From Salminus brasiliensis (lineage: Eukaryota; Chordata; Actinopteri; Characiformes; Bryconidae), in the NCBI RefSeq assembly GCF_030463535.1, contig NC_132888.1:33589269-33653268 (forward strand): a stretch of DNA of 64,000 nt. The letters are read 5' to 3'. How positions within the stretch are numbered: the first letter of the stretch is position 1; each line of letters starts with the position of its first letter. Under the pieces are notes generated by a model. That model ran no database searches. It saw nothing but the letters and a program-made list of their open reading frames with translations, and was not told the origin of the DNA. The translations under genes and the position numbers were made by a program. Below are positions 8,048-56,158 of this stretch, in pieces.

Positions 8048-9851
8048 ATCTCTATCTCTCTCTCTTTCATTCACATACATGCATAGGTACACTCCCACAG
8101 CAGGTCACGAAGGGAACGCTCTGTCAGTGAAAACATGGCTGTCCGTCACAGTTACCAGCTTACCAGAAATGATTCTTTGTGAGTAGAACCTATGTGATAC
8201 TTTTTTATTTTTTGTGATTTATGTATTGTTTTATTTGTTTGTTTGTTTTCGTTTGGTCCTTTTTTTTGGTTAATTTGTTGTCAGATTTTTTTTTATTCTA
8301 AAATAAAAGGACCGCTCCAAATTTCCCACCACCCCATAAAACGCACATTGTAGGTTAATCGTCAAACCTAAATGAAAATGGATGTGTGTGGTATTCTGTA
8401 ATGGACAGGCGCTCAGTGGGTATTTCAGCCTTGTGTCAAATGATTCTGGGTAGGCTATGGGCCCCCGCAACTGTAAAGATGATGGATGAATGGCGATGTA
8501 AAAATTGCTTGTTGAAATCAACTGTAGAAAAGAATAGGATGGATGATTTGCTTAACTAAAGTTCGCAGCCAGTGTAATTTTGGGGGCACATATTTTTTTG
8601 AAGAGCAGTCTGTCCATGGTGTTGTATAAATTGGTTGATTAAAGATGGGAATCAATAACAGGTCCCTTAAGTGTTGCATTATCCCAGTTCATTATACCAA
8701 TCATGTTCATCATTAGAGCATGTACAGTGTTGCATTAGAAGCATTACACACGGGCACTAACAATGCTGGCATCTAAAGATCTTCATGTATGACAACAAAG
8801 TCTCTAAGTAAACACACTGTTTCGAGAGAGTGTCCCATGTAGTTCAGTTGGTAGAACATCAGACTTTTAATCTGAGGGTCCGGATTTTTGCAGCGGCAGG
8901 GGTGGCTCAGCTGCCGTTAATGGGGGTTTGATACCTAGGCTCGGCCAGCTGCCACTGTTGGGCCCCTCAGCAAGGCCCTTAACACTATGCTCTGACTACC
9001 CACTGTGCATTATGTGTGTATTTACTGCACAGATAGGAGGGCAGATTCCATCTGTGTCCAACACAAATGATAAGTTAGTCCAGGCTTAGTCCAGGCTTCT
9101 AGTGTACTTAACATACTGTCCAGCTAGAACCAGGAAAAAAAAAACTTTTTTTAATGCTTAAAAAAAGATTTAGTATGACCATAACCATATATTCATTTTA
9201 GCTTATTTTATAATGTGACCATATTTCTGAAGTAGACTAGTAGACTTATTACCTTTTTATTTGGATTTTCCCTGCACTTCTCTGTATACCACAATGTTTT
9301 TAGAGACTGTTTTAATACCATGAAAATCACACATAGTTGCAACCATAATCATGGCGCAGAGGTACATCTATGCAGAAGGATAAATCAGCTTTTGGTGAAG
9401 ACATATGGTGTAGTTGTGAATGGTGCTGGGTTCCTTTTTGTCTGTACATTTATAATGTTTTAGGATTTGTAGTGTTGACATCATGGTTCATTTGTGGCTC
9501 AACTAGGAAATGCCTCTGTGTCTGTCTAAGCTTTGAAATAGATTCTTACTTTCTTACACTAAAGGGAGAAACAGGGACGACTGAGGGGTTTAGATGTTCA
9601 TTTCAAGGCGATCGCAGTTGAGTTTCATCTCTCGTCCGAAGACAGTATCTGGACACCGTTTTTATAGCCCATTGCATCTAAAGCGGGTGTATTATTTTGT
9701 TGTTTATTCAAATGGTCAGCTCTCCTAACCAATTATTGCCTACTGACTTTTAATCTATGGATTTACAAGCCTGATGAGAACAAATACTGTTTCATCTTTT
9801 TCCATTTCCAGAGGTTAAACTTATACACATATACACTTCAACACTTTCATA

Positions 9852-15900: not shown

Positions 15901-18900
15901 TGTGTTGTGATTACCTTGGAGACAGTAATTGTCAATGCATGTGCTGATGTAGCCAGTCACAGACTCCGTATACTCCTCCAGAAGTTGCTGCTATTCTAAA
16001 CATCTCCCAATTAGTGTGCTCAAAACAGTCCTGAAGAGCTGAGACAGCACCTGGGAACCGGGTCTTCAGCCTGCTTGTGTACGTTTTGGCACGACGAATG
16101 ACCGGTCGGTATGCAAGGATTGGCGCTGCAGAGACGATCACATCTCTGCGGGGCTCGGCTCAGACAGCTTAGGGGATGTTTGTGTACACCAGTGTTGGGG
16201 TAATTACAGACAAAACAAAGTAATCCATTACTTATTACGTATTAAAACTTGTAATGGGATTACTTCACTCATTACTTGCTGGAATATGTAATCTAATACC
16301 TCATTACTTTTAAGTTACATCCTGAAATATATCTGGAAAGTAAGAATCCACTAATCTTTCAATTGTTTATTTAGGAACAGATTGTATCAGTAGTACCAAC
16401 ACTTAACATGTATAAAATGGATTTGACTTTACTTGATTTTACTTATTTTCTCTGAACAAGTACGTGTATTTTAGAAATAGAAAAATGAAGTCCAATGAAG
16501 CCTTCTTTAGTGGTACAACAAAACAAAACCAACATTTCAGCAGTTCATGACACTCAAGTATAAGAACTGAATTCACAAAAATAAAATCTTTATAAATTAA
16601 ACAAAGTTCTCAGGTCTTCAAGAGACTAATTGTAAACTGGCTGAATATTTCTGAATACCACAGATTTTCTTCCACTCATTGAAATAGTGGTTATATCTCA
16701 GTAACAAAAGTCTCTCAAATTGCTTGGAGGAAAGCTTGTTTCTTCTTGGAGTCAGCACAAGACTGCCTCGACTGAAAAGCCTTTCCACAGGTGCGCTTGA
16801 TGGTATTGCAGTGTTGTATTTCAAGGAGATTTTCTTTACTCTGGGGAAGTGGTTTAGAACTTCACTCTCTGCAGTGTAAGAAGTATCTTCCTTGGGGGAA
16901 AATGGGGGGGAAAAAGTCGTCCTGAGTGGAAAAACATGGAAGGTGTTGCTCTGCAGGCCTCATAATGGGCTCATGAGAGGAGCCGAGCACCGAGGCTATA
17001 GATGAGTGGCTTGTTTTTATCCAAAGAGCTGAAGACTTCGCAGTGACACTTCTGTAGACTACTCTGGACTCACTGTTGGTTCTTAACCACATAATCATTT
17101 CTCCATCATTACTTGAGATCCAGTTAAGTGTATGTGAAGCACATTTCATGTGAGGAGGCGAGAGTAAACTGCCCTTCTGAATTAGAGGAGAGAGCCTGGC
17201 CAATATCTGTAAAGCTTCATCCCTGGGCTCTTCATTAAAATCTGAAACTGTATCTGGAGCAAATTCATGCATTCTAAAGGCTTTAATAAAATTAGATCTG
17301 TTGTCTGTTACAGTAGCAGTGACTGTTAAATTTCACTGGCAGTGACATCATATGTATGCCTCCCCTTAATTCTTTTACACGCCAGGGCAGCCTTTTCACG
17401 GCCAAAACTAGTGGGGTTTATCCAGTGTGCCATCATCCCAAGGAAGCTTTTATTGTGGCATGTCCATATATCTGCAATGGTAGAGACCTATTCTAAGCCC
17501 TCATATGTTTTTTTTTTAAGCTTTTTAAGTTATCATAACGTTTCCAAAAAGCTTGCAAATGTTTTTTGGTCTGATGGGTCACTTTTGCCTACGACTGTTA
17601 TGTTCAGTATGTGTCTAAAAGACGGTGACTAAGACAGTGGTAGCATTTCCTTGACTATATATCTTGCAACAAGTCTTTTAATTTCACCATCTGTTACCTT
17701 CCTTCCTGGTGCTGGATAAAAATCCAGTTCAGTTTGTTTGACCTTTATATCAAAAGACCTTCTTCCCAATTAGATTTTACCACGCACCCTGATTAAGTGC
17801 TTCGACAAATTGCCTATGTGAGCTAATCCTTTCCAAAAAGAGCTGTTAGAGGCTCTACGATAAGATTTTGATTTACATAAAGCTGGAAACTGATTTCTAA
17901 GAATTTAGAAATTCACCAGTCTACAGTGAGGCAAACAACAACAAATACACAATTTGGGACTGTGCCGACTCTGCAAAGAAGTGGCCGTCCAGTCAAAATG
18001 ACCCCAAGAGCACAACAGTGATTCATACAAAAAAAACAAAGACAGACAAAGATTTGAAGGCATCATCGGTACAAGCCAACATCTGTCTACAGTGCGTAAA
18101 ACTTTGAACTAGCAGGGTGTCTATGGCAGGACACTACAAAGGAAACTGCTTCTTACTAAAAAGAATATTGCTGCATGTCTGAAGTTTGAGAATGAGCACA
18201 CTGATCTTCACAATGGTACTGGCAAAATGTTTTGTGGACAGATGAAAGATTGAACTATTTGGAAAAACACACGTGGTGGCGTATGTTGGAGGGAACATCA
18301 TGATTTGGGCCTGCGTTGCTGCATCATGGCCAGCTTACAGTCATTGAGGGGAAGATGAATTCCCAAGTGTATCAAACAATCCTACAGGATAATGACAGTG
18401 TCTGTACATCAGCTGAAACTGTAGAAGTTGGGTGATGCAAATGACCGAAAACAGAGGAGCAAGTCCATGACAGAATGGCTTATGAAAAACAAAATCTGTC
18501 TTTTGGAGTGGCCTTGTCAGACTATGGATCGACTTGAAGAGAGCCATACACATGAGACATGCAAGGAACATGACCGAGCTAAAGCAGTTCTGCCAGAAAG
18601 AATGGGCAAAAAATCCTCCTAAACGACTTGGAGGTTTGATGCACTGCTACAGGAAGTGCCTGGTTGAGGTTATTGCTGCCAATGAGGGGTCAAACAGCTA
18701 TTAATTCCAAGGGTTCACTTACTTTTTCCACTACTACTTTGAATGTTGAATGAGTGTGTGTAATAATGTCCTGCAAGACCATAGCTTTTTAGTTTGTTGT
18801 TATTTTGGGCACATTATATTTGTCAATACACTTGACTTGGATGAGGATCAGATCATATTTTATGACAAATTAATGCATTAATTCACATACTTTTTCTTGC

Positions 18901-21900
18901 CACTGTATATTGATAAAATACATATTTAGCCATAGTAATTAAGACATATCAAAGTCAACTAAAAGCTTGTCTGTAAATGAGACCAAAACTGCTTGAGGTC
19001 TTTTTAGCATTGTGCTGAAATAGTGCTTTAAACTCTCGGACTGTCGTTTGCAGCTATGCATATTATGGTTGTTTTTGTGGTGTTTCTGAGATGGAGATTG
19101 TTAAAAGGTGCTGTTAGTTTTATATTTATCAATTTACAGCAAAAATGTGGCTGGGACAGGTTGGTGCAATGCTGTATATAACGTATAATGTATAGAAAGA
19201 AAAATGTTGAGCTAGTTACTTTGGTAGTAAATATTTTTTGGTAAATTCTGATTACATTTTCTAGATTTAACTAGAGTTAACTTAAATCCTGTACTGTCAT
19301 GTTTGAGCTCCAGCACATTTAAATATAAAAAACTTGTTATTTGAGTTTTTCTAAATAGTGCAGTGGTTACTTTCTGCTGCTGTATAGCTCCATTTAAGCA
19401 GCTACCAACTGCTTAAATCGCTAAGACGTAATACTTATACATTTCACTTATACAACATTGGAAATAATAGCAGTGAAATAAATCAATATGTTTTTAGTGA
19501 AAGGATCATGGGTATATTACAGCTGTAAACTTTAACTAAATTAATGTAACTATCTATATGTACAGTGCCATCCATATTTGAGACTCCATATTTGATGTCC
19601 ATATCAGATGTGATTGGAGTACACATTCCACACTTTAATTAATTTAATGGTATTTGCATTTCACATTGTTGAAATTTTAACATTATAGAGGGGAACTGTA
19701 CAATATAGACTATGAAACATATTAAAGTTCATTTGAATGCAATTGAGTTATTTGGGTGAGCCTTGCCCTCAAGGAAAAAGAAAATGCATGTTACTTTTCC
19801 TAGGTATGCACTTTCCACACTGGACACAAGTATGGAGGGTGGATCAGAAGACATGGCTGTTGGTGATGCTACAGCTTTAAGGAGACAGGTAACATTCTCC
19901 TGACACTGGCTTGACCACACCAAGTCATGTCAAAATTAGAAATTGTAAATAATCAACTTACTGTTCGAGTATGCTTGTTTAAATTATGTCCTCCTTGCTT
20001 TATTAAAACCACCTTTACAGTCAGTCTGAAAAATCTGCACACCCCTTTCACATTCTCCATGTTTTATTATGTTACAGACTTCTTCTACAATAGATTGAGT
20101 TCATTTGTTTTGCCTCAAATCTACACACAATCGCCTATAATTATGAAGTGAAAAGGTGTAATTTTCTTTTAATGACAAACATAGGATAAGGCGGGATATG
20201 TGACCCCTTTATAACCTAATACTTAGCTGTTGCTGTGGCAGCAATTACAGCTTCAAGAAATCTTGGGAAAGAAGCTATGGGGGTGGAACACTTGTTTCTG
20301 GACATTCTTGCCCATTCATCTTGGCATATAAGTATGAATCCAAATGAATTTCTGTGGAAGGAGCTGAAAATAGCTTTGTACCGACACTCCCCTTCCAACC
20401 TGATGAAGCTTGCTGATGATACTTATATGCCAAGATGAATGGGCAGATGAAATGTCCAGAAACAAGTGTTCCACCCTCATAGCTTCTTTCCCAAGATTTC
20501 TTGGGCTCTGGCTGATCCACTCAAGGACATTCACAGAATTTTTCTGAAGCCAGTGCTTTTTTCTCTTGGCTGTGTGCCTCAGGTCATTGTCATAACCTTT
20601 GTCCCAGTCTGAGGTCTAGAGCACCCTGGAGCACGTTTTCCTTAAGGATCTCTGTGTATTTGTTTGCATTCATCTTTCCCTCTAGCTGTGCCAGTCGCCC
20701 AGGTCCCGCTGCTGAAAAACATCCCTACATCATGATGCTGCCACTGCCATGCTTCACTGAAGAGATGGCATTAGGCAGGTGATGAGCAGTGCCTGGTGTC
20801 CTCCAGACATGAAGCTGGTATTCAGTACAAAAGTTACATTTTAGTTTAATCAGACCAGAGATTCTTATTTCATGGTTTTAGAGTCCTCTATGTGCCTCTT
20901 GGTCCAGGTGGGCTGTCATGTGCCTTTCACCATGGAGTGGCTTTTGTCTGGCCATTCTACTATAAAAGTATGATTTGTGTAGAGCTGGTGTAGGTTGATC
21001 TTCTGAAAGGTTTTGCCATCTCAATTCACAATCCTGTTTCTGAGGTCTACAGAGAATTCCATGGCTTAGAGTTTACTTTGACATTCACTGTCAACTGTGG
21101 GACCTTTATATAGGCAGGTCTTGGCAATCCTCAGTCATGTCTTGTCAATTGAATTTACCACAGGTGGACTCCAATTAAGTTGTACAGATATTTCAAGCAG
21201 TAATAATGGAAACAAAAGGTACCTCCACTCACTTTTGTTTGTCATATCAAAGGGTGTGGACACTTGTGTACATATACATTTCTTTTTTTAATTGGCACAA
21301 ATGTCTAAACTATTTCATGTAGAATGTTGTGACACAAAATTAACTTTATTGTATCTATTGTAGAATAAGTCTGTAATGTAATAAACGTAGAGAAGGTGAA
21401 AATGGTTTGCAGACTTACAGGCTTAACTATATATACTTTCACACATACAACAAATAATGCAAAGTATATCAGTTGAATCTGAGATGCCCATAAACTGAAT
21501 AATTGGCAAAATAAGAATGTATTAAGATATACTTTGCATTATTCGTTGTATGTGTGAAAGTATATACAGTTAATCAATAAATCTTGAGTGATGTAATTTG
21601 GTGAATTGCTATGCTGAACAGTTTTTGGCAAATAGTAAAGCCAAAATAAATCTTGAGTGATGTAATTTGGTGGATTGCTATGCTAAACAGTTTTTGGCAA
21701 ATAGTAAAGCTGGCTGTTATTTAATACCAATGATTTCTCATTGACCTTGTCATTCTGTCAGAAGTGCTTTTTAAATTTTGATTTGGCTGTGCAGATCATC
21801 AAGCTGAATCGACGGCTGCAGTTGCTGGAGGAAGAGAACAAAGAGAGGGCCAAGCGTGAAATGATTATGTATTCTGTTACAGTCGCATTCTGGCTTATCA

Positions 21901-24758: not shown

Positions 24759-26235
24759 CAGGGTGGGCCATTTATATGGATACACCTAAATAAAATGGGA
24801 ATGGGTGGTGACCATGGTGGCCATTTTGAAGTCGGCCATTTTGGATCCAACTTTAGTTTTTTCAATGGGAAGAGGGTCATGTGACATATCAAACTTATTG
24901 AGAATTTCACAAGAAAAACAATGTTTTTTTTAACACCTGAGGAGCGGATAGAAATTGTGTTGATGTCTGGTGAACGCAGTACCCGGGTTGCATTGCAGCA
25001 GATTTCAATGCAAGACACCCTACGAGACCACCCATCTCCCATGCTACAGTTAGCAAACTGCTTGCCAAGTTTCATGAAACTTGTTCAGTATTGGATTTGC
25101 CAAAATGTGGACGCATGAAAACTGTCACTAATGAAGAAACATCAGCGGCTGTCCTAGCTTCATTCAGCAAGAGCCCACAGTGTAGCACTCACCGCATGTC
25201 ACTGGAGAGAGGCATCAGTCGAACATCCCTTGGGCGGATATTAGCTACTCACAAATGGCACCCTTACAAACTCCAGCTGCTGCAGCATCTCAACGAGGAT
25301 GACCCAGATCGGCGCACTGAATTTGCAGAATGGGCAAAACAAAAATTGGAAAAGGACCCTCAGTTTACACAGAACATTTTGTTCAGTGATGAGGCAAACT
25401 TTTATGTGAATGGTGAAGTTAACAAACAAAACCACCGCTATTGGTCTGACACTAACCCACATTGGATAGATCCCTCCAAGACTGTTGGAACACAAAAATT
25501 TATGGTATATGGGGTACAAAGATAGTGGGGCTATTCTTCATCAATGGAAACCTCAAGGCCACTGGATATTTGAAATTGCTACACGATGATGTGTTTCCCT
25601 CTTTATGCACTGATGCTGGCACGTTCCTGAGTTTTTCCAGCAAGATGGTGCACCACCACATTATGGGTGTCAGGTCCGAGCATTCCTAGATGAACAGTTT
25701 CCTGGAAAGTGGATTGGTCATCGAGGGCCAGTTGAATGGCCCCCAAGGTCTCCTGATCTGACCCCCTTAGACTTTTATCTTTGGGGTCATCTGAAGGCAA
25801 TTGTCTATGCTGTGAAAATACGAGATGTGCAGCACCTGAAACTACAGATACTGGAAGCCTGTGCTAGCATTTCTTCTGCGGTGTGTGAAGAGTGGGAGAA
25901 GACAATCCAACACAATGGGCAGCATTTTGAACACATTTTATAAGTGGTCAGAAACTTGTAAATAACTCATGAAAGAATAAAGTTAAACGTTAAAACCAAG
26001 CACACCATTGTTTTTCTTGGGAAATTCTCAATAAGTTTGATGTGTCACATGACCCTCTTCCCATTGAAAAACTAAAGTTGGATCCAAAATGGCCGACTTC
26101 AAAATGGCCGCCATGGTCACTACCCATCTTGAAAAGTTTTCCCCCTCCCATTGACTAATGTGTCACAAACAGGAAGCTAATATCACCAACCATTCCCATT
26201 TTATTTAGGTGTATCCATATAAATGGCCCACCCTG
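24759..26235 (+). mobile_element. DD41D (rosa-type) Tc1/mariner element, frameshifted
   Basis: Terminal repeats start cagggtgggccatttatatg and extend about 165 bp inward; the right copy has about 68 extra bp (near 26125-26195). The transposase runs from about 24921 to 25942 across three frames. It has TPEERIEIVLMSGERSTR at the N-terminus, LFSDEANFYVNGEVN (first Asp), FQQDGAPPHYG (second Asp) and SPDLTPLDFYLWG (third residue Asp, not Glu). There are 41 residues between the second and third Asp, which is the DD41D pattern. At least three frameshifts make it inactive. It lies inside a TA/CA microsatellite, so the TA duplication is clear only on the right. Confidence 0.8.
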
Positions 26236-27141: not shown

Positions 27142-28682
<1,541 letters not shown>

Positions 28683-28734: not shown

Positions 28735-28975
28735 GTAATAAACACACTTACTAAAATTTATTTAATAATTTGTACAAATGCCTTTGTTGTTGATCACAGC
28801 TTCAACATGCGTCCTGTATGGAGAAACTAGTTGCATGCATTGCTTAGGTGTGATTGGGCCCATTCTTCCACACAAACACTCTTTAAATCCGGAAGGTTCT
28901 GTGGGCTTCTTTCATGAACTCTTCATGAGCTTTAGTTTCTTCCAAAGATTTTCAATTGGATTCAGGGGCAATAAT
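28735..28975 (-). mobile_element. Tc1-like 3' coding fragment
   Basis: Antisense ccaaagattttcaattggat, plus ttaggtgtgattgggcccat and cattcttcca, match the 3' coding part of a fish Tc1-like transposase (NPIENLW region). Confidence 0.6.
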
Positions 28976-43139: not shown

Positions 43140-43900
43140 AATGACTATCATGTGTAAGTGTTTTATTCAAAGAACAGAGATCTATCAAAGTCTGATTTTC
43201 ATAACACATTTTTGAAGTAGCATGGCACATGGCACAAACAAATGTGATTTCTGAGGCCGCAGAAGAAGAGTTGTTGATGCTCATTAGGTTGAAAAAGGTT
43301 ACAAAACCATTTTTAAAGAGTTTTTCCAAAGTCACAAATATTGTGTACAAATGGAGGAAATTTAAGATCATTATTACCCTCCCTAGGAGTGGTCAGCCAA
43401 CAAAGATCATGCCAAGAGCAAAGTGTGTAATAGGCTGTAAGGTCACAAAAGAAACCTAATGTAACTTCTGAGCAAATAAAGTGTTTTGCTACAAGCCTAT
43501 TGGAACAATGTTTAATAGACAAATGTGACCAAATTTTGTTGGTTTAAATTTGAAGTGTTGTTTTTGGAGAAAGGAAAAAACTGCATTTCTGCATAAAAAC
43601 CTATAAACAAGGTGATTGTAGTATTATGGGTTTGCTGCATCTGGTCCAGGACAGCTTGCCAATGTTGTTGGAACTATGAATGTTGAATAATACCAATAAC
43701 AAATTCTAAAGAAAAATGTCAGGACATATGTGCATGAATCTCAAGAAAACATGGGTCATGCAGCAAGAAAACAACCCTAAGCACACAAGTTGTTCTACCA
43801 GAGAATGATTAAAGAAGAAGTTTTGGAATGGCAAAGTCCTTGTGGAAGGACCTGAAATAATCAGTTAAAGCAAGGAAACCCACCAACATAACAGGTTTAT
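43140..43900 (+). mobile_element. Tc1-like transposon relic
   Basis: 43229-43459 encodes KPFLKSFSKVTNIVYKWRKF and LPRSGQPTKIMPRAK, a Tc1 helix-turn-helix and GRPR-like hook. Later, NPKHTSCSTREWLKKKFW (near 43770-43830) covers the second catalytic region. Frames broken. Confidence 0.7.
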
Positions 43901-48014: not shown

Positions 48015-49621
48015 GCTCACAGGGCGCTGTTGGCTGGATATTTCTGGATATTATAGTCTGGACTTATACAACTACAGACTGCTTCTATATGGGAAGTGGA
48101 GCTGATAAAACAAACAGTGAATGTATATTATTTACAGTACTGTGCAAAAGCCTTCCTTTTTTATTCATATTTATTATTTGGATTTTGTCAGTTAGTGTGT
48201 TTTTGCCAATGTAACTGTGCAATACATGTAAACACAAAGTAAAATAAGTTAAATGTGTTGGTTAGAGCAACACAGCTACTAAACTTGGCTGCACCACTTA
48301 TCTTAAATTTAATGTAGGATTTATTAGAAAAGCTAGGTTTTTGAATGGAAACTATAAATACTGCAAGTCCTCAATGACAGCATTAGAAATAACTTACACT
48401 TCAAATCACAATCAAATCAGTGTATTTTTTGGATAAATAATAAATAAATTTATTATTAAATAAATCAATAAATAAAAATGAATCACTATCTATACTATAA
48501 ATGTTCTATCTGTATATATATAGCATGTGGAAAAATAGAACACCACAATCAGTGCCTTTATTGTCTATTAAGTTTTGTATTAAGACATGTATGGTGACTT
48601 GCAATAGCAACATGAATTGCAAGGCACAGTATTACATGTGTGGTGCATTCAGGTGCCCATCTCCCAAAATCACAGCCCAAGACTTGTCTATAATGTACAT
48701 ATGAATTTCTGCTCACAGAATGTATGACCTAAGTCAGTTGGACAATTGTAAAATGACACAAAACAATCACAATCAAAACACAAATTTTGCTCCTTCTTCT
48801 GAGAAACAAGAAAGCTCTCTGAATCACTCTTTGGTTTTATTTATATAAATTGCCATTTATCATGAATATTTTTTTCATGTGTATTCAATAAACCATGCAT
48901 AATGAAATGTGTTATTTGTATGTTTCAATGTGAATATCTGCTGGCAGGAAATGTTAAGATACTGTACCTGTATTGTACTTTGGAAGCAAAACTGAACAAT
49001 CGTCATAATAGCCGTATGCTGGTCGAGGTGATTCATCGAAAACTGAGTGCATTCACTCTACAAAGTGCACCACCAACGTTACATTCTTTAATTGCCAGTG
49101 CTTGGACCCCACTGACACACTGTGCTGAAACCTCTGCATCATTGCAATGTGGGTCCTATGGTCTAAACTAACTTTTTGGGGAAATCAATTCATTACAGCC
49201 ATAGTGTTAATAACAGTAACACAACGGTCACTGTTGGTTTTGTATGCTTTCAACCAACAACTTTTTAGCTGTTGGTCAATGAAGGATGCCACTTCTGTGA
49301 CTCTTTATTTTTTCTCAGCCAAATCAGTTTTTTTTGTTGCTTCCTATCTCCTGAGGAATGATTAGTTGCAATTTTTTATTTTTATTTTTTCATTTTAAGT
49401 GAATGGGCTTCCACAGGCTGGTGTCCTATAAGAACACTGAGGAGGGCTTAGCGCTAAAACATGTTTTATGTGAGTCAAGTGCTGTCCGGTTCTTGTCCGG
49501 CCACTGTCTCTGTATATATGCTGCCTTTGGGATGGATTATTAATAGTTAATAGTTCATGTAAGCTTAACCTGTGTGTTGGTTTCTTCCTTGTCATGTAGA
49601 GGTATGAAATGTCCCTACATA
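48015..49621. other. Intergenic, no gene seen
   Basis: AT-rich. ORFs such as 48902-49171 lack any family signature. Confidence 0.4.
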
Positions 49622-51175
49622 CAGTGGGGAGAACAAGTATTTGATACACTGCTGATTTCTCAGGTTTTCCCACTTGCAAAGCATGTAGAAGACTGTAATT
49701 TTTATCATAGGTACTCTTCAACTGTGAGTGATGGAATCTAAAACAAAAATCCAGAAAAATACATTGTATGATTTTTAAATAATTAATTTCCATTTAATTG
49801 TGGGAAATAAGTATTTGATACACCAGAAAAAGAAACTTAATATTTGGTACAGAAACCTTTGTTTGCAATTACAGAGATGAGACGTTTCCTGTAGTTCTTG
49901 ACAAGGTTTGCACACACTGCAGCAGGGATTTTGGCCCACTCCTCCATACAGATCTCCTCCAGAGCCTTCAGGTTTCGTGGCTGTCGCTGGGCCACACGGA
50001 CTTTAAGCTCCCTCCAAAGATTTTCTATTGGATTCAGGTCTGGAGACTGGCTAAGCCACTCCAGGACCTTAAGATGTTTCCTACGGAGCCACTCTTTAGT
50101 TGCCCTGGCTGTGTGTTTTGGGTCGTTATCATGCTGGAAGACCCAGCCACGACCTATCTTCAGTGCTCTTACTGAGGGAAGGAGGTTGTTGGCCAAAATC
50201 TCACGATACATGGCCCCATCCATCCTTCCCACAATACGGTGCAGTCGTCCTGTCCCCTTTGCAGAAAAGCATCCCCAAAGAATGATGTTTCCACCGCCAT
50301 GCTTCACGGTTGGGATGGTGTTCTTGGGGTTGTACTCATCATTCTTCTTCCTCCAAACATGACGAGTGGAGTTTAAACCAAAAAGTTCTATTTTTGTCTC
50401 ATCAGACCACATGACCTTCTCCCATTCCTCCTCTGGATCATTCAGATGGTCATTTGCAAACTTCAGACGGGCTTTGACATGCGTTGGCTTGAGGAAGGGC
50501 ACCTTGCGTGCACTGCAGGATTTTAATCCTTGACGGCGTAGAGTGTTACTGATTGTTTTCTTTGAGACTGTGGTCCCAGCTCTATTCAGGTCATTGACCA
50601 GGTCCTGCCGTGTAATTCTGGGCTCATTCCTCACCTTCCTCAAGATCATTGATGCTCCACGAGGTGAGATCTTGCATGGCGCCCCAGACCGAGGGAGATT
50701 ATCCATTATTTTGCATTTCTTCCATTTTCTAATAATTGCACCAACAGTTGTTGCCTTCTCACCAAGCTGCTTGCCTATTGTCCTGTAGCCCATCCCAGCC
50801 TTGTGCAGGTCTCCAATTTTATCCCTGATGTCCTTACAAAGCTCTCTGGTCTTGGGCATTGTGGAGATGCTGGAGTCTGACTGATTGAGTGTGTGGACAG
50901 GTGTCTTTTATACAGGTAACGAGTTCAAACAGGTGCAGTTAATACAGGTAATGAGTGGAGAACAGGAGGGCTTCTTAAAGAAGAAGTAACATGTCTGTGA
51001 GAGCCAAAATTCTTACTGGTTGATAGATGATCAAATACTTATTTCCCACAATAAAATGGAAATTAATTATTTAAAAATCATACAATGTACCTTTTGTTTT
51101 ACAGTCTTCTACATGCTTTGCAAGTGGGAAAACCTGAAAAATCAGCAGTGTATCAAATACTTGTTCTCCCCACTG
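49622..51175 (-). mobile_element. Complete Tc1 transposon with IR/DR ends
   Basis: 1554 bp with TA on both sides (49620-49621 and 51176-51177). The outer ends begin cagtggggagaacaagtatt on both strands and match over about 75 bp with one or two differences. Inner direct-repeat copies (gtgggaaataagtatttgat) are at 49800-49822 and, inverted, at 51029-51050, giving roughly 200-bp IR/DR ends like Sleeping Beauty. The transposase is intact. Confidence 0.96.
49837..50859 (-). CDS. Tc1 transposase, full length, uninterrupted
   Basis: Cut-and-paste DDE transposase, 340 residues, the normal Tc1 length. Residues about 1-110 are two helix-turn-helix (paired-like) domains, [20 protein letters not shown] and [14 protein letters not shown], with the linker [16 protein letters not shown] (GRPR-hook position). 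Catalytic blocks: [10 protein letters not shown] (Asp), [18 protein letters not shown] (Asp) and [15 protein letters not shown] (Glu); the second Asp to Glu spacing fits DD34E. It ends GFCTKY, as usual. No stop, frameshift or missing catalytic residue is seen. Kozak context is ccacaATGcc. It should act on its own terminal repeats in the nucleus; activity is not shown. Confidence 0.95.
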
Positions 51176-51177
51176 TA

Positions 51178-52324: not shown

Positions 52325-52610
52325 GACAGGCATGTTCCACTGTGGGTATGGTGTTCTTAGGGTCATGAGATGTGTTGGTTTTACGCTAGACATTTTCCTT
52401 GGTGGCCAAAAAGTTAAATAGTGGCCTCATCTGATCAGAGCACCTTCCTCCATACAATTGGGCTTTTTTCCTGGCTAACCTTCCATAAAACCCAGCTACG
52501 TGGAGTGTACGGCTTATTGTGGTCATATGGACAGATACTCCAGGCTCTGCTTGGGAACACTGCAGCTCCTTTAGGTAGTCTAGACCCTTTGGAGACCCTC
52601 CACCACTAGT
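52325..52610 (-). mobile_element. Tc1-like antisense fragment
   Basis: catgttccactgtgggtatg, tctgatcagagcaccttcct and ttctggctaaccttccataa-like words mark antisense Tc1 coding (DETK region). Confidence 0.55.
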
Positions 52611-53229: not shown

Positions 53230-53339
53230 AGCATAGCGCATAGTCTGCTAGTTAGTTGTAAGTAGGCTGTTCACAATCTAGAGCCGGGACCAGGCCGCAA
53301 ACAGACAGGCTAAACCGACTGTCTGCAAGCTGCTTTGAG

Positions 53340-54735
53340 GTGTCACCCAAGTTTCACTGTATTGAGACTGTGTCTGTGCCCCGAATTAAACCCAAGCATA
53401 GAACATCTAAATCAGCTCGTTTTAATAATTTAATAAGTGTTAAATTCTCGCATTCAAACAACAACAGCACCACATCAGACCTAAAGCTCGGTCTACTTAA
53501 TATTAGACCATTAACCTCAAAAGCAGTCATTGTAAATAAAATGAAATGTGATCAGAAACTAGATGTTTTCTGCCTCACTGAAACCTGGATTAGACCAGAT
53601 CAATATTTAGCACTTAATGAAGCCACCCCTTTAGTTTATAAATATGTACATAGCCCTAGATTATCAGGCAGAGGAGGTGGAATATGTATAATCTACCAGA
53701 ATACACTGGATATTATATAACACTGTATCACCTTCACTTTTTTTTTTAATTCTCTACATTAATATATCAAACCCAGCCACAAATAAAAATGCATTCACAC
53801 CAATTAATATGTATAGGCCTCCAGGGCCCTACTCTGAATTTGTAAAAGAATTTAGTGATTTTGCTGCAGACTTGGCAGTGTGCAGCGACAAAGGTATAAT
53901 AGTAGGAGACTTTAGTATTCATTTAAAAAAAAACAGACGATCCATTAACAAAGGTGTTTGCATCATTCTTGAATTCTGTCGGCATCATACAAACCGTAAC
54001 TAGACTCACACATTACTGTAATCATACCTTAGATTTAATCCTGATCCTGGGTGTTAGCATTGATCATGTAAATATTCTGCCTTAAAACTCAGTAATATCA
54101 GACCATTATCTAATCTCCTTTGAGCTACATCTTAGGCAAAATGTTAATTTGTCCCTTCACCACTGTCTAAAGCGTGCAATAAACCCAATGGCCACTGTAC
54201 AGTTTACTGAAAACACTCATTAAAGCTCACTCAGCGTATTTGGCCTCACTGAACAATCCCAGAGTACTCCTTAGAGAGATTTTACTAAAAGCCAGGCAGA
54301 TACTCTACCAGTAACGTTTTAATGGACTATTGTAATAATAAAATAGAAAATATGTGACAAAAAAAATCAAACCCTCTTTATTAAATCAAACATGGCCATT
54401 ACCTGGTGTAGCTGCTTTAGAACATAACTTCCTTCTACCCACTTCCTCAGCCAGAACTAAAAATTATTCAGCAAATTGTACAACCTGTACACTTGACCAA
54501 ATTCCCTCTAAAATACTAAAAGAAATACTCCCAATTATAATCAGACCTATTTTAACAACTGTAAACTCATCTCTTAGCTTAGGGCATGTACCCAAAACCC
54601 TTAAATTAGCCTTCATAAAACCTTTAATCAAGAAACCAAATCTTGTGTATTGTCTAATTACAGACCCATCTCCAACTTAACATTTATACCAAAGATATTA
54701 GAAAAAGCTGTGGCCCACCAACTCTGCTTATACCT
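53340..54735 (+). pseudogene. L2 LINE ORF2 remnants (endonuclease and RT start)
   Basis: Shows KLGLLNIRPLTSKAVIVN, KLDVFCLTETWIRPDQYL and GRGGGICIIYQ (endonuclease), MYRPPGPYSEFVKEFSDFAA and IIVGDFSIHLKK (endonuclease core), then LDQIPSKILKEILPIIIRPI and PLIKKPNL (RT entry). Frameshifts near 53720, 54000 and 54660; RT palm motifs are missing. Confidence 0.8.
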
Positions 54736-55662: not shown

Positions 55663-56158
55663 ACATTTCAGACACCCGTCTCAACTTGTCATCTGTATAA
55701 AAGACACCTGTCCACCATGGGCAAGACCAAAGAGCTGTCTAAGGATTTCAGGGACAAGATTGTAGACCAGCACAAGGCTGGAATGAGCAACAAAACCATA
55801 AGCAAGAAGCCATTGGTAACACACCGCGCCGAAATGGATTCAAATCCTGCAGTGCCCACAAGGTCCCCCTGCTCAAAAAGGCACATGTGCAGGCCTGAAT
55901 GATTCAGATACTGCTTGAGAGAAGGTGCTGTGGTCAGATAAGACCAAAATTGAGCTCTTTGAAATCAAGTTTACTCGCTGTATTTTGAAGAACAGAAACA
56001 CTGACTATGACCCCAAGACACCATCCTCACCATCAATCATGGAGGTGGAAACATTATGCTTTGGGGGTGTTATTCAGCACAGGTCTCAAGAAGAAGCACA
56101 CCAAGCGACAGCCTCGAAACCTTAATGATTTAGAGATGATCTGCAAAGAGGAGTGGAG
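55663..56158 (+). mobile_element. Tc1 transposase relic with internal deletions
   Basis: Starts [20 protein letters not shown] (55717), then [37 protein letters not shown] and the C-terminal [15 protein letters not shown]. Large parts are deleted. It breaks off at 56158, where LINE sequence begins. Confidence 0.75.

Follow-up and report, generated by a model that had tools for sequence, protein, structure and literature searches.

Does an open reading frame between well-matched ends make a Tc1 transposon an intact one? The question is raised by an element in the window, that is, the whole stretch of 64,000 nucleotides of Salminus brasiliensis DNA analysed here, which an earlier note had described from its letters as an apparently intact, recently inserted Tc1 copy. 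Comparison of the element with its sibling copies led us to a reading to which we give a probability of about 85%: the copy is a young Tc1 insertion that is damaged, most likely lacks a fully working transposase and is a passenger.

Structure of the element

The element lies between TA dinucleotides, its coordinates are exact, and the following features were located (window positions; consensus refers to the family consensus).

49622-51175, Tc1 element
49620..49621, TA target-site duplication, left
49622..49819, + strand, left inverted repeat, 198 nt
49622..49651, + strand, left outer direct repeat, identical to the consensus
49799..49823, + strand, left inner direct repeat, identical to the consensus
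49837..50859, - strand, transposase ORF, 340 aa, D153/D244/E279
51026..51050, - strand, right inner direct repeat, no difference from its consensus counterpart
51030..51175, - strand, right inverted repeat, 146 nt, not 198
51089..51102, private compound deletion scar
51146..51175, - strand, right outer direct repeat, identical to the consensus
51176..51177, TA target-site duplication, right

Both TAs, the inverted arms and the four direct repeats were thus located, as expected from the TA-flanked IR/DR ends first noticed, and a TA on either flank is the target site of Tc1/mariner elements. The outer inverted arms span 79 nt (TA counted in) with 1 mismatch, in agreement with the few differences reported between the outer ends, while the inner arms span 65 nt and are 95% complementary. 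The window contains the 27-bp tip two times, against 0 expected and a maximum of 0 over 100 shuffles. The family consensus has the organization of the IR/DR subgroup, with inverted repeats of approximately 200 bp, each carrying an outer and an inner direct repeat that start at positions 1 and 178.

The transposase ORF of the window copy is uninterrupted, and D153, D244 and E279 are all there with 34 residues separating the second D and the E (DD34E), so the open 340-residue frame with its three DDE residues stood up to analysis. Pfam searches identified HTH_SB, HTH_Tnp_Tc3_2 and DDE_3, all above the curated cut-offs, i.e. a paired-like HTH together with a DDE domain, and the nearest solved structure is that of Sleeping Beauty.

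Comparison with Sleeping Beauty, a salmonid Tc1 element (SB10/SB100X), indicated that both have a DD34E transposase with an HTH_SB domain, residues 1-49, 63-120 and 114-340 aligning gap-free, and that in both a pair of direct repeats sits in each of the long inverted repeats. The transposase of Sleeping Beauty is clearly diverged from that of the window copy, and the end sequences of Sleeping Beauty and the window family differ. The window family is native and young, whereas Sleeping Beauty was reconstructed out of dead copies (PMC4683633, PMC7913693). Three further fish elements were likened to the family by their descriptions only. Salmon DTSsa1 (EF685954) agrees with it in length, ITR length, end bases and ORF length, being described as about 1600 bp long with 200-bp ITR, CAGT ends, a TA site and, in one copy, a 340-residue ORF (PMC2198921). 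Zebrafish ZB, given as 1597 bp with 341 aa, 201-bp TIRs and 20 full-length copies of >99% identity (PMC7913693), and Passport of plaice, counted among the active elements (PMC4683633), are fish Tc1 elements like the window family. The 'Group 1' Tc1 elements of salmon, catfish, pike, lampreys and others are described as close relatives (PMC3516227); by length and architecture the window family is a candidate member of the DTSsa1/'Group 1' assemblage. The window element is ordinary Tc1 biology.

Other features of the window

The other Tc1 relics of the window had been taken to be dead, and this holds for the main ones located: most of the tblastn hits contain stops or are fragmentary.

27494-28483, Tc1/mariner relic, best match, 56% identical to the transposase, internal stops
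28765-28965, Tc1/mariner-related relic
55717-56156, Tc1/mariner-related relic
20502-20811, Tc1/mariner-related relic
17962-18689, Tc1/mariner-related relic
43298-43899, Tc1/mariner-related relic
52332-52541, Tc1/mariner-related relic
25632-25886, Tc1/mariner-related relic

Most of these eight carry stops, frame changes or truncation. The window also contains a tRNA-like sequence at 8833-8904 (Rfam tRNA, 40.3 bits), where ARAGORN calls a tRNA-Lys at 8833-8926, and an open stretch at 53262-53720 whose translation, judged by eye, is like a non-LTR retrotransposon endonuclease.

The family in the genome

Two sets of copies were taken from the genome (1066 Mb searched). The first, obtained with the element as query, consists of the best 40 of 4583 first-look candidates, window copy included, all 40 taken with their flanks and biased to young, consensus-like copies. 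These are mostly 1606 bp long, the 39 others each differ from their consensus by 0 to 6 events, and the inverted repeats of the consensus match at 198 of 198 positions. The ORF is 340 aa in 35 of the 40, 354 aa in four owing to an altered stop codon and 294 aa in one. TA is present on both flanks in 35 of the 40; it is missing on one or both sides of L012, L020 and L027, while L030 and L032 were not scored as TA/TA since the script did not locate their right end.

The second set was selected by exact tips. The 51-bp tip occurs 563 times genome-wide (279 forward, 284 reverse), the reversed control giving 0, and 44 pairs were found among the first 100 tip places, on contig C1 and part of C2; the 12 unpaired places were dropped, one being unpaired merely because it fell at the end of the 100. 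This tip-selected set, which shares 5 copies with the first (39 new), still favours young copies and, TA being part of the search pattern, provides no independent test of the TA flanks. In total 79 copies were examined, window copy included. Hundreds of near-identical, little-diverged family members are therefore present (about 280, should the tips be paired), which is what the proposed search for other copies and their divergence was to reveal, and the prospect that all copies might be old and diverged is clearly contradicted.

Searches of viral contigs (by exact tip and for closely related proteins) and of prokaryote genome contigs found no transposase relatives, and a full-text search with the 28-base tip matched no paper in the library covered.

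Four copies on contig C14 (L015, L016, L017 and L036; 21.7-24.2 Mb) have an identical left flank and all carry 1:C>T and Y340H. Since flank and changes are shared, these copies were probably multiplied by duplication along with their surroundings, not by transposition.

Several copies of both sets have various private indels in the right-hand spacer (consensus 1409-1606), to which ranking bias may contribute. An excess of right-repeat indels among the 40 best-scoring copies was not used, these having been ranked by similarity to a query without that stretch. Per-copy counts in the tip-selected set gave 7 indels in the right repeat, 4 in the left repeat, 16 in the ORF and 3 in the 5' leader. 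We also asked whether the transposase copies evolve under purifying selection, and the counts do not support it: the 40 best-scoring copies have 29 nonsynonymous, 7 synonymous and 1 stop among their distinct ORF changes, where the opportunity ratio is 3.29 nonsynonymous to synonymous if every change is taken as equally likely, and the non-CpG singletons of the tip-selected set comprise 74 nonsynonymous and 28 synonymous.

Age of the insertion

Alignment of the window copy with the family consensus revealed 6 substitutions, about 0.3-0.4%, of which 5 are private among the 79 copies. Two of the six are in the left inverted repeat and four alter the transposase.

49659, T>C, element position 38, left inverted repeat
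49796, T>A, element position 175, left inverted repeat
50813, V16G, private
50705, T52M, shared with other copies
50155, M235I, private
50054, P269L, private

The 44 tip-selected copies carry a mean of 5.16 substitutions (0.32%), and 17 of them have at least 6, so the window copy is not unusual among them; it is the most altered of the 40 best-scoring copies. At the zebrafish rate of 4.13e-9 per site per year (PMC7913693), which serves only as a guide, 0.32% from the consensus corresponds to roughly 0.8 million years, an estimate that depends on exact-tip copies, biased to young ones, and on a borrowed rate. The recent insertion proposed before is upheld by this divergence from the consensus rather than by the similarity of the two ends alone. 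End similarity was set aside as a clock, the ends of the family being identical in the consensus and part of the comparison being concealed by the deletion. Nor was the FastTree sister of the window copy, L074 (support 0.91), interpreted, as it has none of the five private substitutions.

Changes in the transposase

The domain scores of the window copy were compared with those of L011, a reference copy with zero differences from the family consensus. HTH_SB, in which V16G sits, scored 73.9 bits in the window copy vs 82.1 in L011, and DDE_3, in which P269L sits, 44.3 vs 53.7 bits; T52M or M235I may contribute to each of these drops. V16 and P269 are both also found in the aligned Sleeping Beauty transposase. 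Among other Tc1 matches from the window and the fetched loci, counted with relics and hence with broken copies, V occupies position 16 in all three, and position 269 is P in four of eight, the others having I (1), L (1) or a gap (2). T52M, which falls at a CpG and is common to 5 of the 79 copies, and M235I, at a position where I occurs in one relic, look harmless.

In the colinear alignment P269 adjoins S270, the residue to which N245 of Sleeping Beauty is described as bonding, thereby positioning the Q271 loop at the target DNA; N245S is reported as nearly inactive, and Q271S and Q271E as lowered (P = 0.21 and < 1e-4, respectively) (PMC4820933). V16 comes directly after I15, named among the residues packing around H19 in the PAI subdomain, whose stability is reported to influence binding and transposition (PMC11754664). 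In the sources consulted for an assay of either change, namely the main text of PMC4820933, PMC11754664 for V16 and PMC7827188 for P269, none was found, and our case for an inactive transposase therefore rests on the conservation and location of the residues. A loss-of-function change at a conserved residue, named by the earlier note as evidence against an intact copy, is thus predicted for this copy from V16G and P269L, which depart from the consensus.

Deletion in the right inverted repeat

The right inverted repeat has undergone a compound deletion between its outer and inner direct repeats, in which 11 nt were replaced by CC and 43 nt are then gone after TTTTGTTTTA, with TTA microhomology, giving a net change of -52 bp. 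As a result the outer and inner direct repeats are 122 nt apart on the right vs 174 nt on the left, the full-length right-hand repeat likewise having 174. The deletion junction has a single match in the genome, the window copy itself, with up to 1 mismatch permitted. No shared spacer indel was found among the 44 tip-selected copies, which therefore give no sign of spacer-deleted copies multiplying. That the deletion and the substitutions are assembly or sequencing errors is a very improbable explanation: the data come from a single assembly, but so complex a deletion, with its short microhomology, speaks against error, as does the scatter of the substitutions, which resembles that in other copies.

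All four direct repeats of the window copy match their consensus counterparts, and transposition of Sleeping Beauty is said to require all four (PMC7827188). With its four binding repeats preserved, the window copy may at best be movable in trans by other copies. The shorter right-hand spacing may affect transposition.

What had been called apparently intact is so only at first sight: the open ORF, the triad and the ends are there, whereas V16G, P269L and a right repeat 52 bp short depart from the family. An intact, autonomous copy should show neither a change at a conserved residue nor ends shorter than those of its family, and the window copy shows both. It would still be autonomous if V16G and P269L were tolerated and the shortened right inverted repeat were transposition-competent. 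The uninterrupted ORF, the retained catalytic triad, the consensus direct repeats and a substitution load no higher than in many tip-selected copies agree with this, yet we consider it unlikely, given HTH_SB and DDE_3 scores below those of the consensus-identical copy, a deletion unique in the genome and five substitutions unique among 79 copies. Since these private changes are found in no other copy, there is no sign of progeny. The structure, the divergence from the family, the private lesions and the uniqueness of the deletion in this assembly are observed directly, whereas the loss of activity of a damaged copy, which we prefer, is inferred from conservation and location.

Disabled copies and recurrent variants

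Judged by length, the ORF reaches 340 aa or more in 21 of the 44 tip-selected copies and is shorter in 23. L056, among the 21, has lost 288 bp and its start is shifted, which makes 20 the fairer count, and L062, also among them, carries D244A at a catalytic residue. Of the shorter ORFs, that of L073 (339 aa, one residue missing) may not be broken, and the other 22 measure 135 to 332 aa.

The stop E158* was identified in 7 of the 44, each with different flanks, and a genome-wide search for its 33-mer gave 18 places (a raw count without wild-type denominator). N245I is carried by 6 of the 79 copies and occurs at 24 places (likewise a raw count without such a denominator), while N245T was found in 3, E154G in 5 and *341E, loss of the stop codon, in 9 of the 79. 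Because E158* and similar variants recur at dispersed sites, copies whose transposase is disabled, or probably so, were mobilised in trans, as is expected for Tc1/mariner elements. Seven of the 18 E158* places are on C1 or C2, and three of them, on C2 at 36.9-37.4 Mb, may reflect local hopping. At C13:25363712-25364011 a single copy has E158* and N245I together; the variants are thus not strictly separate lineages, and recombination, conversion or repeated mutation took part.

This copy, at 25.36 Mb, and the many near-identical copies available as donors would also suit gene conversion, by which the window copy could be an older relic homogenised rather than recently inserted. We regard this as highly improbable, as recent transposition agrees with TA-flanked copies that differ in their flanks and whose changes are mostly private, and the private deletion of the window copy was left unconverted. 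Recent insertion is retained below.

We asked whether disabled-transposase lineages amplify preferentially, beyond passive carriage, using 75 copies (the window copy and the three sharing the flank of L015 were left out). Seven non-CpG protein-altering variants were present in at least 3 of the 75 and no synonymous variant reached that frequency; A200V is nested in the E158* group and so is not independent. Three of the seven (N245I, N245T and E154G) adjoin a catalytic residue and a fourth is the stop E158*. Nonsynonymous or stop singletons at or adjoining a catalytic residue numbered 2 of 103, vs 3 of 7 for the recurrent variants (Fisher p = 0.0015), in a post hoc test of small numbers in which 36 of the 75 copies come from the list selected by similarity to the window copy. 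When only the 44 tip-selected copies are considered, one of five recurrent variants (N245I; the others being *341E, A200V, E158* and K63E) adjoins a catalytic residue, and because of this count we slightly lowered an estimate that was low already. The singleton ratios look neutral, which also counts against preferential amplification. We thus hold it to be quite unlikely, and passive trans-mobilisation is the default reading.

Discussion

The history that we propose for the window copy begins with a cut-and-paste Tc1 element (DD34E, IR/DR type) that would have inserted at a TA site during the expansion of the family, probably about 1 million years ago or less by the borrowed zebrafish rate. 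The compound deletion, V16G, M235I and P269L would have been acquired after the insertion or shortly before it. The transposase is most likely no longer fully functional, and the element would now be a passenger, which other copies could at most mobilise in trans through its four binding repeats.

The description of the element is thereby corrected: an open ORF and matching ends are insufficient for calling a Tc1 copy intact, and the damage in such a copy is revealed by comparing its siblings. The family is a clear example of recent Tc1 expansion, in which stops and near-active-site changes shared at dispersed TA sites make the trans-mobilisation of dead copies directly countable. If disabled lineages did amplify preferentially, then selection among elements would, in the course of a burst, favour loss of self-encoded transposase activity.
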